This document shows, one piece after another, positions 1 to 58,978 of a DNA stretch of 64,000 nt (positions are counted from its first letter, which is position 1; each line of letters starts with the position of its first letter). Source of the stretch: Arcticibacter eurypsychrophilus (GTDB lineage: Bacteria > Bacteroidota > Bacteroidia > Sphingobacteriales > Sphingobacteriaceae); contig NZ_MDFN01000020.1 in NCBI RefSeq assembly GCF_001730525.1, positions 1-64,000 on the forward strand, read 5' to 3'. A model generated the notes under the pieces. That model searched no databases. It was not told the DNA's origin and saw only the letters and a program-made list of their open reading frames with translations. The position numbers and the translations under genes are program-made.

Positions 1-49
1 CCTTTTTTCTTTTACCGGACAACAGTATAAATTAATCTATTTTATATCC

Positions 50-10813: not shown

Positions 10814-11467
10814 TTGAAAAAGGTAATAGTAGTTGGCGGTAGCGGACTTATTGGATCTCACCTGATTCAATCTTTGTTACGCGAAGATCGTATTGAAGAA
10901 GTAGTTGCTTTGGTAAGAAAGCCATTAGATCTCATTCATGCTAAATTAAAGCAACAAATTGTATCCTTTGATGATCCAAACACTTTTTCAGAATTGATCA
11001 ATGGCGATGCTGTAATGTGTTGTTTGGGTACTACGAAAAGTAAAACACCCAATTTAAAGGATTACAAAAAAATTGATTACGATTATCCATTGTTAATCGC
11101 AAAGATAGCAAGTGATCATTTTGTGCCTCAATTTCATTTAATTTCATCACTAGGCGCTGATAGTCAATCTGTTATGTTTTATACTAAGACGAAAGGTAAA
11201 TTAGAAGATCGCATTAAAGCTTTAAAATTTAGATCATTGCATATCTATCAGCCTTCTTTATTGGATGGGGATCGTAAAGAAGCCAGACCAACTGAGAAAA
11301 TTGCAATTGGGGTGATGAGGCTTATTAATCCCATTTTGTTGGGACCATTAAAGAATTATAGAAGCATTAAAGTTGAAACGATAGCAAATGCTATGGTTAT
11401 CCAAACATTAAAAAATCTTGAGGGGACGTTTACTTATCCTTCAGACAAGATTAAAGAATTAATATGA
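10814..11467 (+). CDS. NAD(P)-binding oxidoreductase, TIP30/HTATIP2-like
   Basis: A 217-residue atypical short-chain dehydrogenase. The Rossmann motif GGSGLIGSHL is at residues 8-17. VMCCLGTTKSK near residue 72 and the HLISSLGADSQSVMFYTKTKGKLE block (Ser, Tyr, Lys) complete the family pattern. It starts at TTG (10814), with no better upstream ATG and a -7 element 20 bases before. It overlaps the ABC-F gene by ATGA at 11464-11467, so the two are coupled. The substrate is not predictable. Confidence 0.85.
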   Translation: MKKVIVVGGSGLIGSHLIQSLLREDRIEEVVALVRKPLDLIHAKLKQQIVSFDDPNTFSELINGDAVMCCLGTTKSKTPNLKDYKKIDYDYPLLIAKIASDHFVPQFHLISSLGADSQSVMFYTKTKGKLEDRIKALKFRSLHIYQPSLLDGDRKEARPTEKIAIGVMRLINPILLGPLKNYRSIKVETIANAMVIQTLKNLEGTFTYPSDKIKELI

Positions 11468-13323
11468 GTATTTTATCAGGAGAACAATTAGGTCATGTAT
11501 TTAGTGATGCATGGTTATTTAAAGAGCTTACATTCGGAATAGACAAAGGGCAACGGGTTTCATTAGTTGGAATTAATGGTTCCGGGAAGTCTACTTTATT
11601 AAAGATTTTAGCTGAAAAGATCGTTCCTAAAGAAGGGAAAGTGGTTAAGGAGCGAGGTCTCAATATTGGTTATTTGGAACAAGACCCTGATTTTAGCGGT
11701 CAGAAAACTATTGCCGATTATGTGTATAGTCTCGATAATAATCAACAGCAAGTAATCAGGCAATATGAAAAACTGATTGAGTTAGAGCATCCCGATCCAA
11801 AAGAGCTGGAGAGTCTGATTGATCAACTTAGCGAGCTGGATGCATGGGAATATGAACATGAGATTAAAACTATCCTTCAACGTCTATCTATTTTTGATCA
11901 TGAACAGGAAATAAAAAGCCTTTCGGGTGGTCAGAGAAAACGTTTGGCATTAGCGAAACTTTTGATTGATAATCCGGATGTCTATATCATTGATGAGCCC
12001 ACCAATCATCTGGATATTGAAATGATTGAGTGGCTGGAAAGCTTTCTGACTACTGGTCATAAAACGGTATTAATGGTTACGCATGACAGGTATTTCCTCG
12101 ACAATGTTTGTAATCAAATTATAGAGCTGGATAAGCAACGCTTATTTAATTATAATGGTAACTATAGTTATTACCTGGAAAAGAAGTCAGAGCGTGAAGC
12201 AGACGATGCCTCTTCTCTTCAAAAGAATCGTAATTTATTAAAGAAGGAACTAGAGTGGATGAGAAGGATGCCTCAGGCAAGGGCAACTAAATCTAAAGCA
12301 AGGATAGACTCTTTTTATGAACTGGAAGCGAAGACTAAAACGACTCAGAATTTAAAGGTAGAGTTAAGTACTTCAGTTTCCAGACAGGGCAATAAGATCA
12401 TTGAGATTAAAGGAGTTCAGAAAGGATTTAATGATAAAGTTTTCATTGAAGACTTCAGCTATACCTTTAAGAAAGGTGATAAGATAGGTATTGCCGGAAG
12501 AAATGGAACAGGTAAATCTACCTTGTTAAATTTAATCACGGGTCTTATTCAACCAGACGCTGGAACCATATCTATTGGAGAAACCATTGTATTTGGATAC
12601 TATCAGCAGAGCGGTTTAGAATTAAATAAAGATGAACGCGTTATTGATGTAGTTAAGAATGTAGCGGAATATATCATGATGGCTGATGGAAAGACATTAA
12701 CAGCATCGCAGTTACTTACACACTTCCTCTTCCCTCCTGCTAAGCAACATAACATGGTTAGCAAACTAAGTGGTGGAGAAAAGAAGCGGCTGCAATTGAT
12801 GCGTGTGTTGATGAAGAATCCGAATGTCTTGATTCTTGATGAGCCTACCAATGACTTAGATATAGATACCTTAAATATACTGGAAGACTTTTTAGAACGT
12901 TATTCGGGTGTGCTTTTATTGGTATCGCATGATCGATATTTAATGGATCGGTTGACGAATCAATTGTTTATTTTAGAAGGTAATAGTAAAGTGAATATCT
13001 ATTCAGGAAACTATACTGACTATCGGTTAGAAAAAGACAACGAAGTAAAGACTAAAGAAAGCAATAAAAATAGTCTTCCAGCTGTTGAGAGTTCAAAAAA
13101 GAATAAGCTTTCTTATAAGGAAGAAAAGGAATTAGAGGCGATTGATGTTCAGGTTCCTGATCTTGAGAATCAAATTCAACTATTAACCGATCAATTGAAT
13201 AGTGGAATTACAGACCATCAAGAGCTAACATTACTTGCTGATGAAATTCAAAAGCTTAAAAGTCAATTGGATTTGATTAGTGTACGCTGGATAGAGTTAA
13301 CAGAAATACAAGAAAATCAATAA
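11464..13323 (+). CDS. ABC-F family ATPase (Uup/EttA-like)
   Basis: A soluble tandem ABC protein, 619 residues, without membrane segments. ABC-F proteins act on ribosomes as translation or resistance factors. Domain 1: Walker [10 protein letters not shown], signature LSGGQRKR, Walker [13 protein letters not shown]. Between the domains lies a charged linker (about 235-300). Domain 2: [29 protein letters not shown]. The C-terminus (about 540-619) is a predicted coiled coil, as in Uup. Its start overlaps the preceding gene by 4 bases. It is followed by two parS-like sites, then mnmG. A Uup-type role is most likely; antibiotic resistance is possible but nothing specifically shows it. Confidence 0.93.
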
Positions 13324-13325
13324 AA

Positions 13326-13339
13326 GTTCCACGTGGAAC
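13326..13339. promoter_or_regulatory. parS-like site 1 (GTTCCACGTGGAAC)
   Basis: A perfect 14-bp palindrome, GTTCCACGTGGAAC, close to the general ParB/Spo0J site tGTTtCACGTGAAACa. The flanks extend the symmetry to aaaGTTCCACGTGGAACttt, 20 bp. It sits 3 bases after the ABC-F stop codon. A second copy follows 31 bp later. Confidence 0.82.
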
Positions 13340-13356
13340 TTTAAAGACATATAAAC

Positions 13357-13370
13357 GTTCCACGTGGAAC
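13357..13370. promoter_or_regulatory. parS-like site 2 (GTTCCACGTGGAAC)
   Basis: An identical perfect palindrome, 10 bp before the mnmG ATG and 31 bp (about three helical turns) from site 1, so both copies face the same side of the helix. These are the only two copies I find in the window. Confidence 0.82.
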
Positions 13371-13379
13371 ATCAATAAA

Positions 13380-15239
13380 ATGTTTAAAAAATACGATATA
13401 ATAGTTGTAGGGGCAGGACATGCAGGTTGCGAGGCAGCGGCAGCAGCTGCTAACCTGGGATCTTCTGTACTTTTGGTTACAATGAATATGGCTACTATAG
13501 CTCAAATGAGTTGTAATCCAGCAATGGGTGGAGTAGCAAAAGGTCAGATAGTTAGGGAAATTGATGCCATGGGTGGTTATTCTGGTATTGTTTCTGATAA
13601 GTCGACTATCCAATTCAGGATGTTGAATAAGTCTAAGGGGCCTGCAATGTGGAGTCCTCGTACTCAGAATGACAGGATGAGGTTTGCTGAAGAATGGCGA
13701 CTTATGCTGGAACAAACTCCTAATGTTGATTTTTGGCAAGACACTGTAAATGAATTGCTCGTTAAGGGCGATCGTGTAATAGGAGTTAAAACTTCATTGG
13801 GAATTAACATTGAAGCAGGTGCAGTTGTTTTGACTAACGGTACTTTCTTGAATGGTTTAATACATATAGGAGAGAAACGATTTGGTGGAGGCCGTACAGC
13901 TGAAAAATCAGCAACTGGATTAACTGAACAGCTTAACGAATTAGGCTTTACTTCCGGAAGGATGAAAACAGGAACCCCTCCAAGAGTAGATGGAAGGAGC
14001 CTTGACTATTCCTTAATGGAAGAACAATGGGGAGATGAGACTCCTGGTAGATTTTCATTTACAGATGTAGAGGTACCGAAACAACAGAAATGCTGCTGGA
14101 TTACTTATACAAATTTAGACGTTCACGAAACACTTAAGGAAGGGTTTGAAAAATCTCCTATGTTTACGGGACGAATTAAAGGCTTAGGCCCTCGATACTG
14201 TCCTTCCATTGAAGATAAAATAAACCGCTTTGCTGACCGTGATAGGCATCAGATATTTGTTGAACCAGAAGGCCTGCACACAGTAGAAATATATGTAAAC
14301 GGATTTTCAACCTCTTTACCAGAGGATATACAATATAAGGCTTTAACAAAAATTCCTGGGTTTGAAAAAGTAAAAATGTTCAGACCTGGTTATGCTATTG
14401 AATATGACTTTTTCCCTCCTACCCAATTAGGTTTAACACTTGAAACCAAACTTATAAAAAATCTATTCTTTGCTGGTCAGATTAATGGAACCACAGGATA
14501 TGAGGAAGCAGCTAGTCAGGGATTCATTGCCGGAATAAATGCGCATCAGAAAATTAATGACTTCCATGAATTGATAATGAAAAGGTCTGAATCTTATATT
14601 GGCGTTTTAATAGATGACCTGGTAACTAAAGGAACTGAGGAACCTTATAGAATGTTTACTTCGAGAGCTGAGCACCGCTTATTATTAAGGCAGGATAATG
14701 CAGACATCAGACTCAGTCCTATTGGTCACCAGTTAGGATTAGTAAATGATGAAAGATTAGAAAAGGTAAATAAAAAAATTGAAAATTCTGATACGATCAT
14801 TAAATATTTAAAATCTACATCCATTGAGCCTTCCTTAATTAATAGTCTGTTAGAAGAACTTGGTACATCAGCTTTAACTCAAAACTTTAAACTGTTTCAA
14901 TTAGTAACGCGTCCTCAAGTATCCCTAAATGACTTAAGAAAAGCAAGTACGGGATTGAATGACTTGCTTATGCAGTTCGATATTGAGACAATTGAACAGG
15001 CCGAAATTAAAGCTAAATATGAGAGCTATTTTGAGAAAGAGCTGGAAATTGTAGGAAAGATGAAAAAAATGGAAGATCAGGAAATCAATCCTAATTTTGA
15101 TTATTCCGGCATGGTATCCTTATCAAAAGAGGCAAGAGAAAAATTGAAAAAGATAAAGCCAAGAACATTGGGTCAGGCTTCAAGAATATCAGGCGTTTCT
15201 CCTTCAGATATATCAGTTATTATGGTACATTTGAAATAA
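13380..15239 (+). CDS. mnmG: tRNA uridine-34 carboxymethylaminomethyl synthesis enzyme MnmG (GidA)
   Basis: FAD-dependent partner of MnmE in forming cmnm5U34 in tRNA anticodons. 619 residues, full family length. The FAD-binding motif is [12 protein letters not shown] (residues 8-19). The GidA signatures [21 protein letters not shown] (near 47) and [19 protein letters not shown] (near 425) are both present. Starts at ATG 13380. The sequence GTTCCACGTGGAAC occurs twice in the 56-base gap before it, so its promoter overlaps probable ParB sites. mnmG commonly lies near replication origins. Confidence 0.97.
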
Positions 15240-17782: not shown

Positions 17783-19369
17783 TTATAATATGGTATCTTG
17801 AGTTACATCCTGATGAAAAGGATAATCAGTTGTAAAATGCAAACCCCTGCTTTCCTTTCTCTTTAAGGCAGATTTTATCACCATATAAGCAGTTTGAATA
17901 ACATTTCTTAACTCACACAACTTAACAGAAAGTTTGGTCAGTTTGTAAAACTCTTCCGTTTCTTCATAAAGAAGACCTAAACGACGCATGGCACGGTCAA
18001 GTCTAAAATCTGAACGAACGATACCTACATAGTCACTCATTATTTTTTGCGTTTCGCGTAGATTGTGAGTAACCAGAATATCCTCATTAGAAAGCTGCGT
18101 ATTCGTTTCATCCCATTCAGGAATATCAGTAGGAATACTTACATTGGCAAATTTATCCAAAGAATCCGCATAAATACGATGAGCAAAAACAAGAGCTTCA
18201 AGCAAAGAATTTGAGGCTAACCGGTTTGCCCCATGTAAACCTGTAGACGAACATTCGCCGCAAGCATATAAGCGATGAATAGATGATCTTCCATTTTTGT
18301 CGACCATAACTCCTCCACACATATAATGACAGGCAGGAGTTACAGGAATCATATCCCTGCTCATGTCTATTCCGATGCTTAAACACCGGGCGTAAATATT
18401 TGGAAAATGAGTTAAAATTTCTTCTTTAGAACGATGCGTGATATCCAGGTAAACGAAATCCTCACCAGACTTTTTCATTTCTGAATCAATCGCCCGCGCA
18501 ACAATATCCCTTGGCGCTAAAGATAAACGCTCATCATACAAATGCATAAACTCCTTGCCCTCTCTATTTTTTAACACACCACCGAAGCCACGTACCGCTT
18601 CTGAAATAAGAAAAGAAGGATATTCGCCTGGATTATATAAAGCAGTAGGATGAAACTGAATGAATTCCATATTTCTAACCTTACCTTTTGCACGATAAAC
18701 CATTGCAATACCATCACCTGTTGCAATAACTGGATTGGTAGTATTCGAATAAATATGACCAGCCCCGCCTGAACCCATCACTGTAACTCTGGAAAGGAAT
18801 TTTTCTACCTTACCTGACTTTGTATCCAGGGCATAAATTCCATAGCACTCAATATCATCTGATCGCTTATCTACAAATATGCCCCGGTGGTGCTGTGTTA
18901 TTAGTTCAACAGCAAAATAATGTGTTAATATTTCAATATTTGGATTGCTATGCACTTGCTCTAATAGGGCACGCTCAATTTCGAACCCGGTAATATCCTT
19001 ATAATGAAGAACCCGGTGTTCTGAATGCCCACCTTCTTTTGCTAAATCATAAAAACCCTTGTTCGTTTTATCAAACCGGGTACCATATTCTATAATTTCT
19101 TTGATTCGCTCAGGACCTTCATTCACTACTATATCAACAATTTCCTGATTACATAATCCATCACCCGCAATTAGAGTGTCATCTACGTGTTTGTCGAAAG
19201 AATCTTGTTTATCCACAACTACAGCCACCCCACCCTGGGCGTACTTCGTGTTCGATTCATCTTCATTTGCTTTTGTAACTATCAGTACCTTACCATGTTT
19301 TGCAGCCTTTAGTGCAAAACTTAAACCTGCTATTCCAGAACCTATAACAAGGAAATCAACATCTCTCAT
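17783..19369 (-). CDS. nadB: L-aspartate oxidase
   Basis: Flavoenzyme that oxidises L-aspartate to iminoaspartate, the first step of de novo NAD synthesis. 528 residues. The FAD motif is VIGSGIAGLSFAL (residues 8-20). QGGVAVVV, HSEHRVLHYKDITGFEIE and the C-terminal ECSSTGLHGANRLASNSLLEALVF match the family. Divergent from nadA, which uses its product, across a 575-base AT-rich gap. Co-directional with the gamma-carbonic anhydrase gene. No nadC is present in the window. Confidence 0.96.
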   Translation of the reverse strand: MRDVDFLVIGSGIAGLSFALKAAKHGKVLIVTKANEDESNTKYAQGGVAVVVDKQDSFDKHVDDTLIAGDGLCNQEIVDIVVNEGPERIKEIIEYGTRFDKTNKGFYDLAKEGGHSEHRVLHYKDITGFEIERALLEQVHSNPNIEILTHYFAVELITQHHRGIFVDKRSDDIECYGIYALDTKSGKVEKFLSRVTVMGSGGAGHIYSNTTNPVIATGDGIAMVYRAKGKVRNMEFIQFHPTALYNPGEYPSFLISEAVRGFGGVLKNREGKEFMHLYDERLSLAPRDIVARAIDSEMKKSGEDFVYLDITHRSKEEILTHFPNIYARCLSIGIDMSRDMIPVTPACHYMCGGVMVDKNGRSSIHRLYACGECSSTGLHGANRLASNSLLEALVFAHRIYADSLDKFANVSIPTDIPEWDETNTQLSNEDILVTHNLRETQKIMSDYVGIVRSDFRLDRAMRRLGLLYEETEEFYKLTKLSVKLCELRNVIQTAYMVIKSALKRKESRGLHFTTDYPFHQDVTQDTIL

Positions 19370-19944
19370 GAGTAACTATTTTAAAAAATTAAATATAGCA
19401 TTGTGTATGTTGATAACTGTAATAAAGATGTTAATTAAAGAGATAAAAGAGCTAATAAATTTTAATAACTAATCGTTACTGGGGATTTTAGGAAAATTTA
19501 TTTTATTTTTAATAAAGTTTTGAGTTCAAATCAAACAGTTATTAACTTTCTGATCACATCAAATAAATCACATTATAAAATAAACGTTAAAAATTTGGAA
19601 AATATATATATCTCCTTTTAAACTACTTATCACAACTAAAGTGTTAATAACTTGTTAATATTTAAGGTATAAATCATTTTACACCATAAATTTTAGCACA
19701 CTACCAACATTACTAACACACTAATAACCTATAAGATTCTTTATATATATAACTAATTATAATTATTGAGATGTTAGAAATGGATACTTTTGAGGAAATA
19801 AAGAGCAGATAATTAAGATAGCGCGTGTTTGTTTAGCGAGCCAATTTTAGAAGTAATTAAGTTGGAGATCAAAACAAAGAGCAGGCTGTTTGAAAATTTA
19901 AAATAATATCCTAGGAACAATTTATATTTACAGGAAGGTTAGAA
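19370..19944. other. AT-rich divergent intergenic region nadB/nadA
   Basis: 575 bases, strongly AT-rich. It holds a partial copy of the nadA start (19773-19802), a TACTTTTG element (19785-19792) and several TTAATAAC-type words. TGTTGATAA at 19408-19416 is one base off a DnaA box on the minus strand; TGTTAATAA at 19642-19650 is two off. No gene is seen apart from a possible 10-codon leader at 19780-19812. Confidence 0.5.
19773..19802 (+). repeat. Partial duplicate of the nadA translation start
   Basis: This 30-base stretch matches 19938-19967, which spans the nadA start codon, at 25 of 30 positions including the ATG. The duplicated frame reads MDTFEEIKSR and then stops (19780-19812); nadA reads MNILEEL. 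It contains TACTTTTG (19785-19792), a TAnnTTTG match, so it may also act as a promoter. It could be a leader peptide, a relic of duplication or a fortuitous promoter source. Confidence 0.55.
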
Positions 19945-20937
19945 ATGAATATTTTAGAGGAGTTAAATATGAAGGGTTTCATAGAAGAGCCCATTGATCC
20001 TACTTTGGATCTATATGTTGAAATTGAAAAATTAAAAAGAGAAAAGAATGCAGTGATACTTGCTCATTATTATCAGGAGCCTGATATTCAAGATATTGCT
20101 GATTATATTGGAGATAGTTTAGGTCTTTCACAACAGGCTGCAAAAACGGATGCTTCTATGATTGTATTTGCTGGAGTGCATTTTATGGCCGAAACAGCTA
20201 AAATACTATCACCTGAAAAAAAGGTTTTGTTGCCAGATTTAAAAGCTGGATGCTCTTTATCAGACAGTTGTCCTCCTGTTCTATTCGCTAAGTTTAAAGA
20301 AAAATACCCTGATCATTTAGTCATCACGTATGTAAACTGTTCTGCAGAGTTAAAGGCATTAAGCGACATTGTGTGTACCTCTTCCAATGCAGTACAGATT
20401 GTAGAAAGCTTACCTAAAGATCAGAAAATAATATTTGGCCCTGATAAAAATTTAGGTAAATATGTGGCCAAAAAAACTGGTCGTGATCTAGTACTATGGA
20501 ATGGCGCATGTATGGTACATGAAATTTTCTCCAGACAACGTATTATTAAACTACAAGAGCGTCATCCAAATGCAAAATTCATAGCACATCCGGAATGTGA
20601 AGATGCTGTTTTAGAATTGGCTGATTACGCAGGATCAACAACGGGTTTATTAAAATACACGATAAACAGTCCCGCTACCGAGTTCATAGTAGCTACCGAA
20701 AGTGGTATTATTCATCAGATGCAAAAAGAAAATCCGGGTAAAACATTTATTCCTGCACCTCCGGATAATAGTTGCGCTTGTAATGATTGCCCTCACATGA
20801 AACGTAATACACTTGAAAAGCTCTATCTTTGCATGAAAAATGAGCTTCCTGAAATAAAAATACCATTGGATATTATTGAAAAGGCAAGGGTTCCCATAGC
20901 AAGAATGCTTGATATTTCTGCCAAATTAGGATTGTAA
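19945..20937 (+). CDS. nadA: Quinolinate synthase
   Basis: Iron-sulfur enzyme condensing iminoaspartate with dihydroxyacetone phosphate to quinolinate in NAD synthesis. 330 residues. Conserved Cys candidates for the [4Fe-4S] cluster lie in [20 protein letters not shown] and [14 protein letters not shown]. The [19 protein letters not shown] block (residues 41-59) is the family signature. The start is preceded by aggaagg. A partial copy of this start region lies 165 bases upstream. Divergent from nadB. Confidence 0.96.
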
Positions 20938-56185: not shown

Positions 56186-58978
56186 ATGCGCCTTTCCTAC
56201 TCGCTAATCTTTCTTTCTGCTTTTCTGTTTTTTGGTCTGGCGCAGCTTTGTGCTCAGGATAAAAAAGGCCCTCTATTGTCGGAACAATTTGATCGGGTTA
56301 AGGTCTCTGAGTTTGCGGACTATTTAGAGAAAGCTGCGGATTGCAAGATCTACTACGATAGCACTGCTTTTGATAGTCTCCGCGTTAGTGTAACTTTTGA
56401 AAATATGCCGCTTGATGCGGTGCTTACCCGTGCTTTTTTGAATACGAAGATTAAATATGCAATTGACTTTGAGAAACATGTGTTTCTGAGTCTGGACCAG
56501 GAACTTGTTGTTGGTCTGCCTGAGGGGTTTTGGGATAATAGTGGGATTAAGGCTCCTCTGACAAATGAAGAGCCGCCTTTAATTTCTGAGTTCCTGGTGG
56601 ACGTAGACAAGAATACTGCTGTGGCATCATCGGCTAATAAGGTGTATACGATTGGGAACCGGACGGCAACGTTTAAGAAAGGAAACGTGACGCTGGCGGG
56701 TTATATTAAAGAGGCGAACAGTGGTGAGCCGGTAATTGGGGCTAGTGTATATATTGAGTCTCCTCGAATTGGCGTGAGTACGAATCAGTCCGGTTATTAC
56801 TCGATCAGTCTTCCTGCTGGCAGGCATGTGCTGAATATTCGTTTTATCGGAATGCGGGATGCTTCAAGGATCATTAATTTGTTTTCGGATGGCAAACTGG
56901 ATATTGAGGTTATTAATCAGGTTCGTTCTTTAAATGAAGTGAAGATTTCGGCTGAGAAGATTGCGAATATCAGGAATACGCAAATGGGTGTGGAGAAACT
57001 GAGTATGGCTACCATCAAACAGATCCCTACGGTATTTGGGGAGCCTGATATTTTAAGGGTGATCCTGACTTTGCCGGGTGTGAAGTCTGTGGGGGAAGCG
57101 AGTACGGGCTTTAATGTCAGGGGCGGCGGTACGGATCAGAATTTGATCTTATATAATGATGCAACTATATACAACCCTTCGCATTTGTTTGGCTTCTTTT
57201 CGGCCTTTAACTCAGACGCGATAAAGGATATTGAACTGTATAAAAGTAGTATTCCGGCTAAATTTGGCGGAAGGATCTCTTCTGTGCTGGATGTGCATAG
57301 CCGGGAAGGGAATAATAAAAAGTTTGCGGGTACGGCTGGGATTGGCTTGCTAACGAGTCGCATTAATCTGGAAGGCCCGATTATTAGGGATCGAACTTCG
57401 TTTATGATTGGCGCCAGAACGACTTACTCAGATTGGCTGTTAAGGGAATTGCCTGCAAAATCGGGATATAAGAATAGTAAGGCTGCTTTTTCGGATATTG
57501 ATCTGCATCTGCATCATAAGTTTGATGATCAGAATAGTTTGTCGATAACCGGGTATTTAAGCAGCGACCGGTTTAATTTGAATAGCGATACAGTTTATAG
57601 ATATTTCAATACGAATGCTTCGCTAAAATGGAAACATATTTTTAATAACAAGTTCAACGGGAGTATTTCAACTGGGATAGACCGCTATGAGTATAAGGTG
57701 AATAGTGAGGATAATGTGGTGAATGCGTATAAGATGGGTTTTGATATTAATCAATCTAACGTAAAAACAGACTTTACGTATTATGTGAACTCCAAACATA
57801 CGCTTGACTTTGGGGCCAGTAGTATTTATTACAAATTGCATCCGGGAAGTTTTGTTCCTGCAAGTGCGGAATCACTGGTTAGTCCGGATGTTCTTGATCC
57901 TGAACAGGCGTTGGAAAGTGCGCTGTATCTGGGCGATCGTTTTGAGATTACTCCGGCCTTGTCCTTAAATGTGGGGATCAGGTATTCGTTGTTTAATTCT
58001 CTGGGTCCGGCATCTACGTATACCTATGCGGATGGCTTGCCTAAAAATGAGTTTAACATCACGGATAGTGTCGGGTATAAAAAGGGGGATGTGGTGAAGA
58101 CGTATGGTGGACCGGAATATCGTGTTTCGGCCAGGTATTCCTTTACGGGTGATTTTTCTGTTAAGGTGGCCTACAATACGTTGAGGCAGTATATTCATAT
58201 GTTGTCGAACACAACGGCTATTGCGCCTACAGATATCTGGAAGTTGAGTGATATGAATATTAAGCCGCAGGAAGGGAAACAGGTGTCGTTGGGATTATAT
58301 AAGAACTTAAAGTCGAATACGATTGAGACTTCCATGGAGGTGTATTATAAGTGGCTGAATAACTATCTGGATTATAAGAGTGGGGCGACACTGATCTTGA
58401 ATCATCATATTGAACAGGATGTGATTAACACACAGGGAAAGGCTTATGGTTTGGAACTCATGATCAAGAAGACGGCTGGTAAGCTCAATGGATGGATTAG
58501 TTATACGTATTCGAGAACGTTTTTGAAGATGGATGATCCTACTGCCATTCAGCTGGTCAATGATGGTGCGTATTATCCTGCAAATTATGATAAACCGCAT
58601 GATTTTACCGTGGTGGGTAATTATAAAGCATCGCACAGGTTTAGCCTTTCGGCTAATGTGACTTACAGTACAGGAAGGCCTATTACGCTTCCGGTAGGTA
58701 AGTATTATTATGGCGGATCGGAACGGCTGCTATATTCGGATCGTAATCAATACCGGATTCCGAACTATTTCAGGACAGACCTCTCTATGAATATTGATGG
58801 GAACCATAAAGTTCATCAATGGATTCATAGTTCATGGACACTGGGGATCTATAATGTAACGGGAAGACATAATCCGTATTCGACCTATTTTACGACTGAG
58901 CAGGGTGCGGTGAAGGGTTATCAGTTATCTATTTTTGCTTCTGCGATTCCATTTATAAATTATAACCTTCGATTCTGA
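56186..58978 (+). CDS. TonB-dependent receptor with STN domain
   Basis: A 930-residue outer-membrane receptor. A signal peptide (residues 1-24) is followed by an STN-like domain (about 30-110: VKVSEFADYLEKAADCKIYYD), a CarboxypepD_reg-like domain (about 170-255: LAGYIKEANSGEPVIGASVYIE), a plug (about 265-395: GEPDILRVILTLPGVKSVGEASTGFNVRGGGTDQNLILYNDATIYN) and a barrel. It lacks the SusC-type VxxVLKGAxAxALYGSRG motif, and no SusD gene is near, so it is a different receptor class. The STN domain suggests signalling, but no anti-sigma factor is beside it. Confidence 0.9.
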   Translation: MRLSYSLIFLSAFLFFGLAQLCAQDKKGPLLSEQFDRVKVSEFADYLEKAADCKIYYDSTAFDSLRVSVTFENMPLDAVLTRAFLNTKIKYAIDFEKHVFLSLDQELVVGLPEGFWDNSGIKAPLTNEEPPLISEFLVDVDKNTAVASSANKVYTIGNRTATFKKGNVTLAGYIKEANSGEPVIGASVYIESPRIGVSTNQSGYYSISLPAGRHVLNIRFIGMRDASRIINLFSDGKLDIEVINQVRSLNEVKISAEKIANIRNTQMGVEKLSMATIKQIPTVFGEPDILRVILTLPGVKSVGEASTGFNVRGGGTDQNLILYNDATIYNPSHLFGFFSAFNSDAIKDIELYKSSIPAKFGGRISSVLDVHSREGNNKKFAGTAGIGLLTSRINLEGPIIRDRTSFMIGARTTYSDWLLRELPAKSGYKNSKAAFSDIDLHLHHKFDDQNSLSITGYLSSDRFNLNSDTVYRYFNTNASLKWKHIFNNKFNGSISTGIDRYEYKVNSEDNVVNAYKMGFDINQSNVKTDFTYYVNSKHTLDFGASSIYYKLHPGSFVPASAESLVSPDVLDPEQALESALYLGDRFEITPALSLNVGIRYSLFNSLGPASTYTYADGLPKNEFNITDSVGYKKGDVVKTYGGPEYRVSARYSFTGDFSVKVAYNTLRQYIHMLSNTTAIAPTDIWKLSDMNIKPQEGKQVSLGLYKNLKSNTIETSMEVYYKWLNNYLDYKSGATLILNHHIEQDVINTQGKAYGLELMIKKTAGKLNGWISYTYSRTFLKMDDPTAIQLVNDGAYYPANYDKPHDFTVVGNYKASHRFSLSANVTYSTGRPITLPVGKYYYGGSERLLYSDRNQYRIPNYFRTDLSMNIDGNHKVHQWIHSSWTLGIYNVTGRHNPYSTYFTTEQGAVKGYQLSIFASAIPFINYNLRF

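Follow-up and report, generated by a model that had tools for sequence, protein, structure and literature searches.

A probable two-site parS centromere ahead of mnmG in Arcticibacter eurypsychrophilus, with a candidate replication origin about 6 kb downstream

Introduction

Two copies of one palindrome stand directly ahead of mnmG in Arcticibacter eurypsychrophilus. Do they serve the segregation of the chromosome, the expression of mnmG, or nothing at present? We analysed the stretch of 64,000 nucleotides that carries them (the window), the draft genome of the organism and the genomes of its relatives. The reading we favour, with a probability of about 0.92, is a parS centromere of two sites that a Spo0J-type ParB would load. 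About 6 kb further downstream, the nadB-nadA gap would most likely be the replication origin. Sites of the parS type are well known. The useful new details are their anchoring at mnmG, the uncoupled parAB and dnaA genes, and a candidate oriC.

The two palindromes and their number in the genome

The perfect palindrome GTTCCACGTGGAAC presents an exact match at 13326..13339 (copy 1) and a second one at 13357..13370 (copy 2), both unstranded. The copies start 31 bp apart and leave 17 bp between them, and copy 2 lies 9 bp ahead of the mnmG ATG. Both sit in a 56-bp gap. It is bounded by the stop of an ABC-F type ATPase gene at 13323 (11464..13323, + strand) and by the mnmG start at 13380. The mnmG gene (gidA; 13380..15239, + strand) matches Pfam GIDA at 6e-159. 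A preliminary description of this DNA had reported two perfect palindromes, a distance of 31 bp and a gap of 56 bases. All three are correct, the distance being measured from start to start.

A parS site is defined by a palindrome of 16 bp, TGTTNCACGTGNAACA, or by its core of 14 bp. The window presents the perfect core twice, with a partial deviation in the outer bases (A/T at copy 1, C/A at copy 2). The window has no further match to GTTCCACGTGGAAC, even with up to two mismatches. Shuffled windows (n = 100) gave a mean of 0.11 matches at this threshold, and none of them reached two.

The scan of the organism's own draft genome (4,686,437 bp in 93 contigs) found exact copies only before mnmG. 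An even scatter of the 14-mer, which the preliminary description had named as grounds against its reading, is therefore excluded. With one or two mismatches, five further matches appear, for a total of 7 against 7 for the reversed-pattern control. Degenerate distal parS sites were rejected, because these matches are background. In all likelihood the chromosome has no centromere-like sites for ParB loading besides these two palindromes, as judged from a draft whose gaps could hold extra copies; closed relatives have two or three.

Conservation in Sphingobacteriaceae

The order was surveyed through 151 genomes, all of one family (Sphingobacteriaceae) and spread over 12 genera. The motif GTTYCACGTGRAAC is present in 151 of 151: one copy in 7 genomes, two in 130, three in 12 and four in 2. 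The reversed motif gave 5 sites in total across the same genomes. In 29 of the 30 loci read, mnmG is immediately preceded by a site or a pair. The remaining locus, L021, holds an additional site in a genome that has its pair 16.7 kb away. The ABC-F gene upstream is syntenic in nearly all the relatives read.

Named relatives were also fetched by their MnmG (80, of which 78 were usable). At least one site lies within 300 bp before mnmG in all 78: two sites in 59, three in 16 and one in 3. Neighbouring sites are 23-178 bp apart. A fixed spacing was rejected, and because of this variation the pair is not an operator of fixed phase. In an alignment of the 78 relatives and the window, the flanks mostly hold less than 1 bit per position and the site is kept; this serves as an illustration, with a search pattern that itself fixes most positions of the site.

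The ParA, ParB and SMC proteins

The own genome encodes ParA (268 aa) and a ParB of 300 aa on contig C22, whose gene overlaps the end of parA. SMC is present at full length (1183 aa). The ParB contains GERRLR, the CTP-binding motif of the ParB family. Its best-scoring solved chain is 7bnk, which we take to be the ParB of M. xanthus (the table entry reads ParB family protein). In the alignment to this chain, the R and G specificity positions are kept. These two residues are invariant in the ParBs that bind parS, and the Noc residues are Q/K/K/R (PMC7383237). The genome thus encodes, besides ParA, a CTP-type ParB with the residues of parS specificity.

We also considered and rejected a Noc-binding site (NBS), in which positions 1 and 6 of the core are not those of parS. 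The window has the parS core. With the Noc model, the ParB reaches 229 bits, below the cut-off of 315 bits, and it lacks the Noc residues; the Noc lysine positions are Y and R, as read off the 7bnk alignment. The likeness to ParB-Spo0J sites in the preliminary description is well founded: the core is exactly the known one, the ParB is of the parS type, and the motif occurs in every genome of the order that was surveyed.

In the mechanism that we propose, a dimer of the Spo0J-type ParB would sit on each 14-mer. The bound ParB would close into a CTP-dependent clamp and spread over the flanking DNA. ParA would then move the ParB-DNA complex, and the newly copied origins would separate. ParB might also load SMC at parS. 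Centromere and origin would travel together, although dnaA and parAB lie elsewhere in the closed relatives.

A second ParB-domain protein was observed in Arcticibacter pallidicorallinus (G048, same genus), at L111, C7:87215-87700, in a frame of 663 aa. It perhaps belongs to a mobile element.

Position relative to the origin

The own draft carries dnaA on contig C14, parAB on C22 and mnmG on C12, and the position of the origin rests on relatives. Three closed genomes were used for the cumulative GC skew, sampled as 20 kb per 120-300 kb, which gives a resolution of a few hundred kb. In G025, parS is at 65 kb and the coarse minimum is the contig start. In G105, parS is at 2.22 Mb, with the minimum at 2.0-2.5 Mb. 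In G057, the respective values are 5.12 Mb and 5.1 Mb, and the drift does not close. Dense profiles of GC skew and coding strand within about 200 kb of parS are noisy, with no sharp minimum or switch. The skew of the window itself follows gene orientation and is uninformative for the origin.

The genes dnaA and parB are far from the sites. The distance from dnaA to parS is 0.37 Mb in G025, 1.45 Mb in G105, 0.55 Mb in G057 and 0.93 Mb in G090. For parB, it is 0.50, 1.75, 1.33 and 1.21 Mb, respectively. The preliminary description had placed the window near the origin and had proposed dnaA as a reference. Its first point is supported: the two copies stand together, parS falls at the coarse minimum of the skew in three closed relatives, and a cluster of DnaA boxes is about 6 kb away, which is consistent with an origin-proximal pair. 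The distance to dnaA is not a suitable measure: in the closed relatives, 0.37-1.75 Mb separate parS from dnaA and parAB. As an origin marker, dnaA misleads there by up to 1.45 Mb. Conversely, mnmG with its parS offers a simple marker for Bacteroidota, and where it is found the origin region is probably near.

As a separate observation, G105 (C1 and C2) presents nine weak matches to the DnaA model with identical scores, in a frame of 289 aa. They are likely a multi-copy IS helper ATPase.

The nadB-nadA gap as a candidate oriC

The candidate oriC (19370..19944, unstranded) is an AT-rich gap with 8 DnaA-box-like 9-mers. Its left border is a gene for an FAD-dependent oxidoreductase (17783..19369, - strand), which is syntenic in G105, G025 and G057 and 78-79% identical there. 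We read it as the L-aspartate oxidase gene nadB, because of its Pfam FAD_binding_2 and Succ_DH_flav_C domains and the divergent nadA. The right border is nadA (quinolinate synthase; 19945..20937, + strand; Pfam NadA, 1.9e-126).

For the box counts, both TTATCCACA and TTATTAACA were allowed up to one mismatch. No other 450-bp stretch of the window scores as high as the gap (8 boxes against 0.56 expected). The gap also ranks first in the 400-kb stretches of G105, G025 and G057, that is, in four of four with the window. TTATTAACA was derived from the same alignment, which makes the combined count partly circular and leaves only the TTATCCACA counts independent. At one mismatch, TTATCCACA is enriched 6-fold in the gap relative to the rest of the loci; several genomes have no TTATCCACA-like box in it. 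Within 400 kb around parS, at least four boxes in 500 bp occur only at 2,224,508 in G105 (six) and at 58,725 in G025 (four), and G057 has no such cluster. Both clusters fall at the nadB-nadA gap, downstream of mnmG and about 6 kb away from parS.

The gap is 405-414 bp long in most genomes and 575 bp in the window. It lies 6.0-6.9 kb from parS and is 69-79% AT (0.76 against 0.65 for the locus). TGTTAATAA/TGTGGATAA elements stand at matching places in the gaps of relatives. This is a cluster of DnaA boxes beside an AT-rich region, as counted with a partly self-derived consensus. From these features of sequence, the nadB-nadA gap is most likely the replication origin.

Two observations concern its borders. 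The genomes G080 (L285), G050 (L284) and G114 (L299) keep parS and mnmG without the usual nadB-nadA arrangement; their origin may be elsewhere or bordered differently. In the window and in G048, additional sequence separates the candidate oriC from nadA. In the window, a short ORF (MLEMDTFEEIKSR, followed by a stop) lies at 19771-19812, just ahead of nadA and where nadA starts in relatives, as though the start of nadA had shifted or been duplicated in part.

Conservation of the parS-mnmG link across the phylum

A parS site precedes the mnmG Rossmann motif at short distance in 117 of 247 genomes (59 of 122 genera); the control gave 0. From the other 130 genomes, 24 were picked across families, not at random, and parS and mnmG were compared by coordinates only. 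Of these 24, 18 have a site no more than about 510 bp from mnmG. It is only 3' of mnmG in ten (G240, G175, G152, G167, G151, G312, G171, G292, G233, G374), on both sides in five (G161, G236, G327, G188, G170) and only 5' in three (G156, G221, G278). G170 has six clustered sites.

In G324, parS is 12 kb from mnmG, and in G162, G186 and G307 the two are on separate contigs. G182 and G335 have no exact site in the genome. They present near-sites with one mismatch, about 34, 70 and 79 bp before mnmG, and both encode ParB.

The mnmG gene keeps an adjoining parS across most of the phylum sampled. Because the sites are 5', 3' or on both sides, parS is linked to mnmG as a place and not to its promoter. 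Among the papers naming both parS and mnmG, none reports this link (Livny et al. 2007 was outside the comparison).

The mnmG promoter

The preliminary description had suggested that ParB loading overlaps the mnmG promoter. In the window this is not supported: the 180 bp before mnmG contain no TAnnTTTG, and mnmG trails the ABC-F gene on the same strand by 56 bp. A strict search for TTTG-17..23-TAnnTTTG gave 0 matches in the 78 relatives.

The suggestion holds in a subset, mainly Mucilaginibacter. A relaxed search for the -7 element in 124 mnmG loci found TAnnTTTG 30 bp (24 sites) or 29 bp (3 sites) from the start of parS. Other offsets have 0-2 sites, and the opposite side of parS shows no peak. 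These 27 sites are mostly from Mucilaginibacter, upstream of mnmG (L020, L024, L030, L147-L195 and others). The spacing between parS and the -7 element looks selected, because the spacers have diverged and mnmG begins anywhere between 65 and 344 bp away. In Bacteroidota promoters, a -33 element is expected where the Mucilaginibacter parS sits. Promoter overlap is not a general rule, since parS is found 5', 3' or on both sides of mnmG across the phylum.

We propose, tentatively and with more doubt than confidence, that mnmG is the ancestral anchor of the Bacteroidota centromere, and that in part of Sphingobacteriaceae parS also serves as the -33 region of this gene's promoter. If this were true, mnmG transcription would respond to ParB loading at a newly replicated origin, through a parS at a fixed 30 bp ahead of the -7 element. 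A tRNA-modification gene would then be tied to chromosome segregation. The fixed spacing in Mucilaginibacter makes this possible link between segregation and expression directly testable.

Alternative explanations

The motif is short, and perfect palindromes can arise locally. Nevertheless, repeats that arose by chance, or relics that no longer have a function, are hardly credible here: two sites were found against 0.11 expected in the window, the motif is in all 151 genomes of the order, and the sites were kept while their flanks diverged. Even the two genomes of the phylum that lack an exact site have near-sites ahead of mnmG. It is quite improbable that the palindromes act primarily on mnmG transcription, as an operator or as a piece of the promoter to which ParB or some other factor binds, and are near the origin only incidentally. 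Such a role would explain why the sites are directly 5' of mnmG in this order and why 27 sites in the 124 loci keep TAnnTTTG at 29-30 bp across a diverged spacer. In addition, P. aeruginosa ParB at parS can lower the expression of adjacent genes (review PMC7022226). A primary role in mnmG transcription does not agree with sites only 3' (10/24) or on both sides (5/24) in other families of the phylum, with six clustered sites in G170, or with a spacing of 23 to 178 bp. The window also has no TAnnTTTG before mnmG, and the sequence is that of known parS.

The sites could also be parS, with oriC a few hundred kb away and not in the nadB-nadA gap. We consider this unlikely, though it is the least unlikely of the three alternatives. 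The skew is only coarse, the box enrichment relies on a partly self-derived consensus, and some relatives are without canonical boxes or without the nadB-nadA arrangement. Against it, the TTATCCACA-type clusters of six (G105) and four (G025) have no equal with at least four boxes in the 400 kb around them, and the gap has a near-constant length with elements conserved in position. A parS centromere with its origin at the nadB-nadA gap is preferred.

Comparison with known systems

In gut bacteria, including Bacteroides caecimuris, a parS cluster lies at an origin supported by Hi-C, and the origin is not systematically at dnaA, according to the available part of that study (PMC10197239). In the same part, parS marks the origin as it seems to do in Arcticibacter, and no link to mnmG is reported. 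The two Bacteroidetes described there are without condensin, unlike the Arcticibacter genome with its full-length SMC.

The parS of M. xanthus (TGTTCCACGTGGAACG) occurs at 22 sites, and ParB binds its 14-bp core in vitro (PMC3899335). This core is the same as in the window palindromes. However, Arcticibacter has two sites instead of 22, and parAB is a few kb from the sites in M. xanthus and far from them in the closed relatives of Arcticibacter. The parS1-4 sites of P. aeruginosa are proximal to oriC, and any single one suffices for segregation (PMC4368675). They share the core of the window palindromes and likewise stand near oriC. P. aeruginosa has additional degenerate distal sites, whereas the Arcticibacter genome has none above background. 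A natural centromere of two sites, 31 bp apart and far from parAB, would offer a clean test of the minimal number of sites in a ParABS system.
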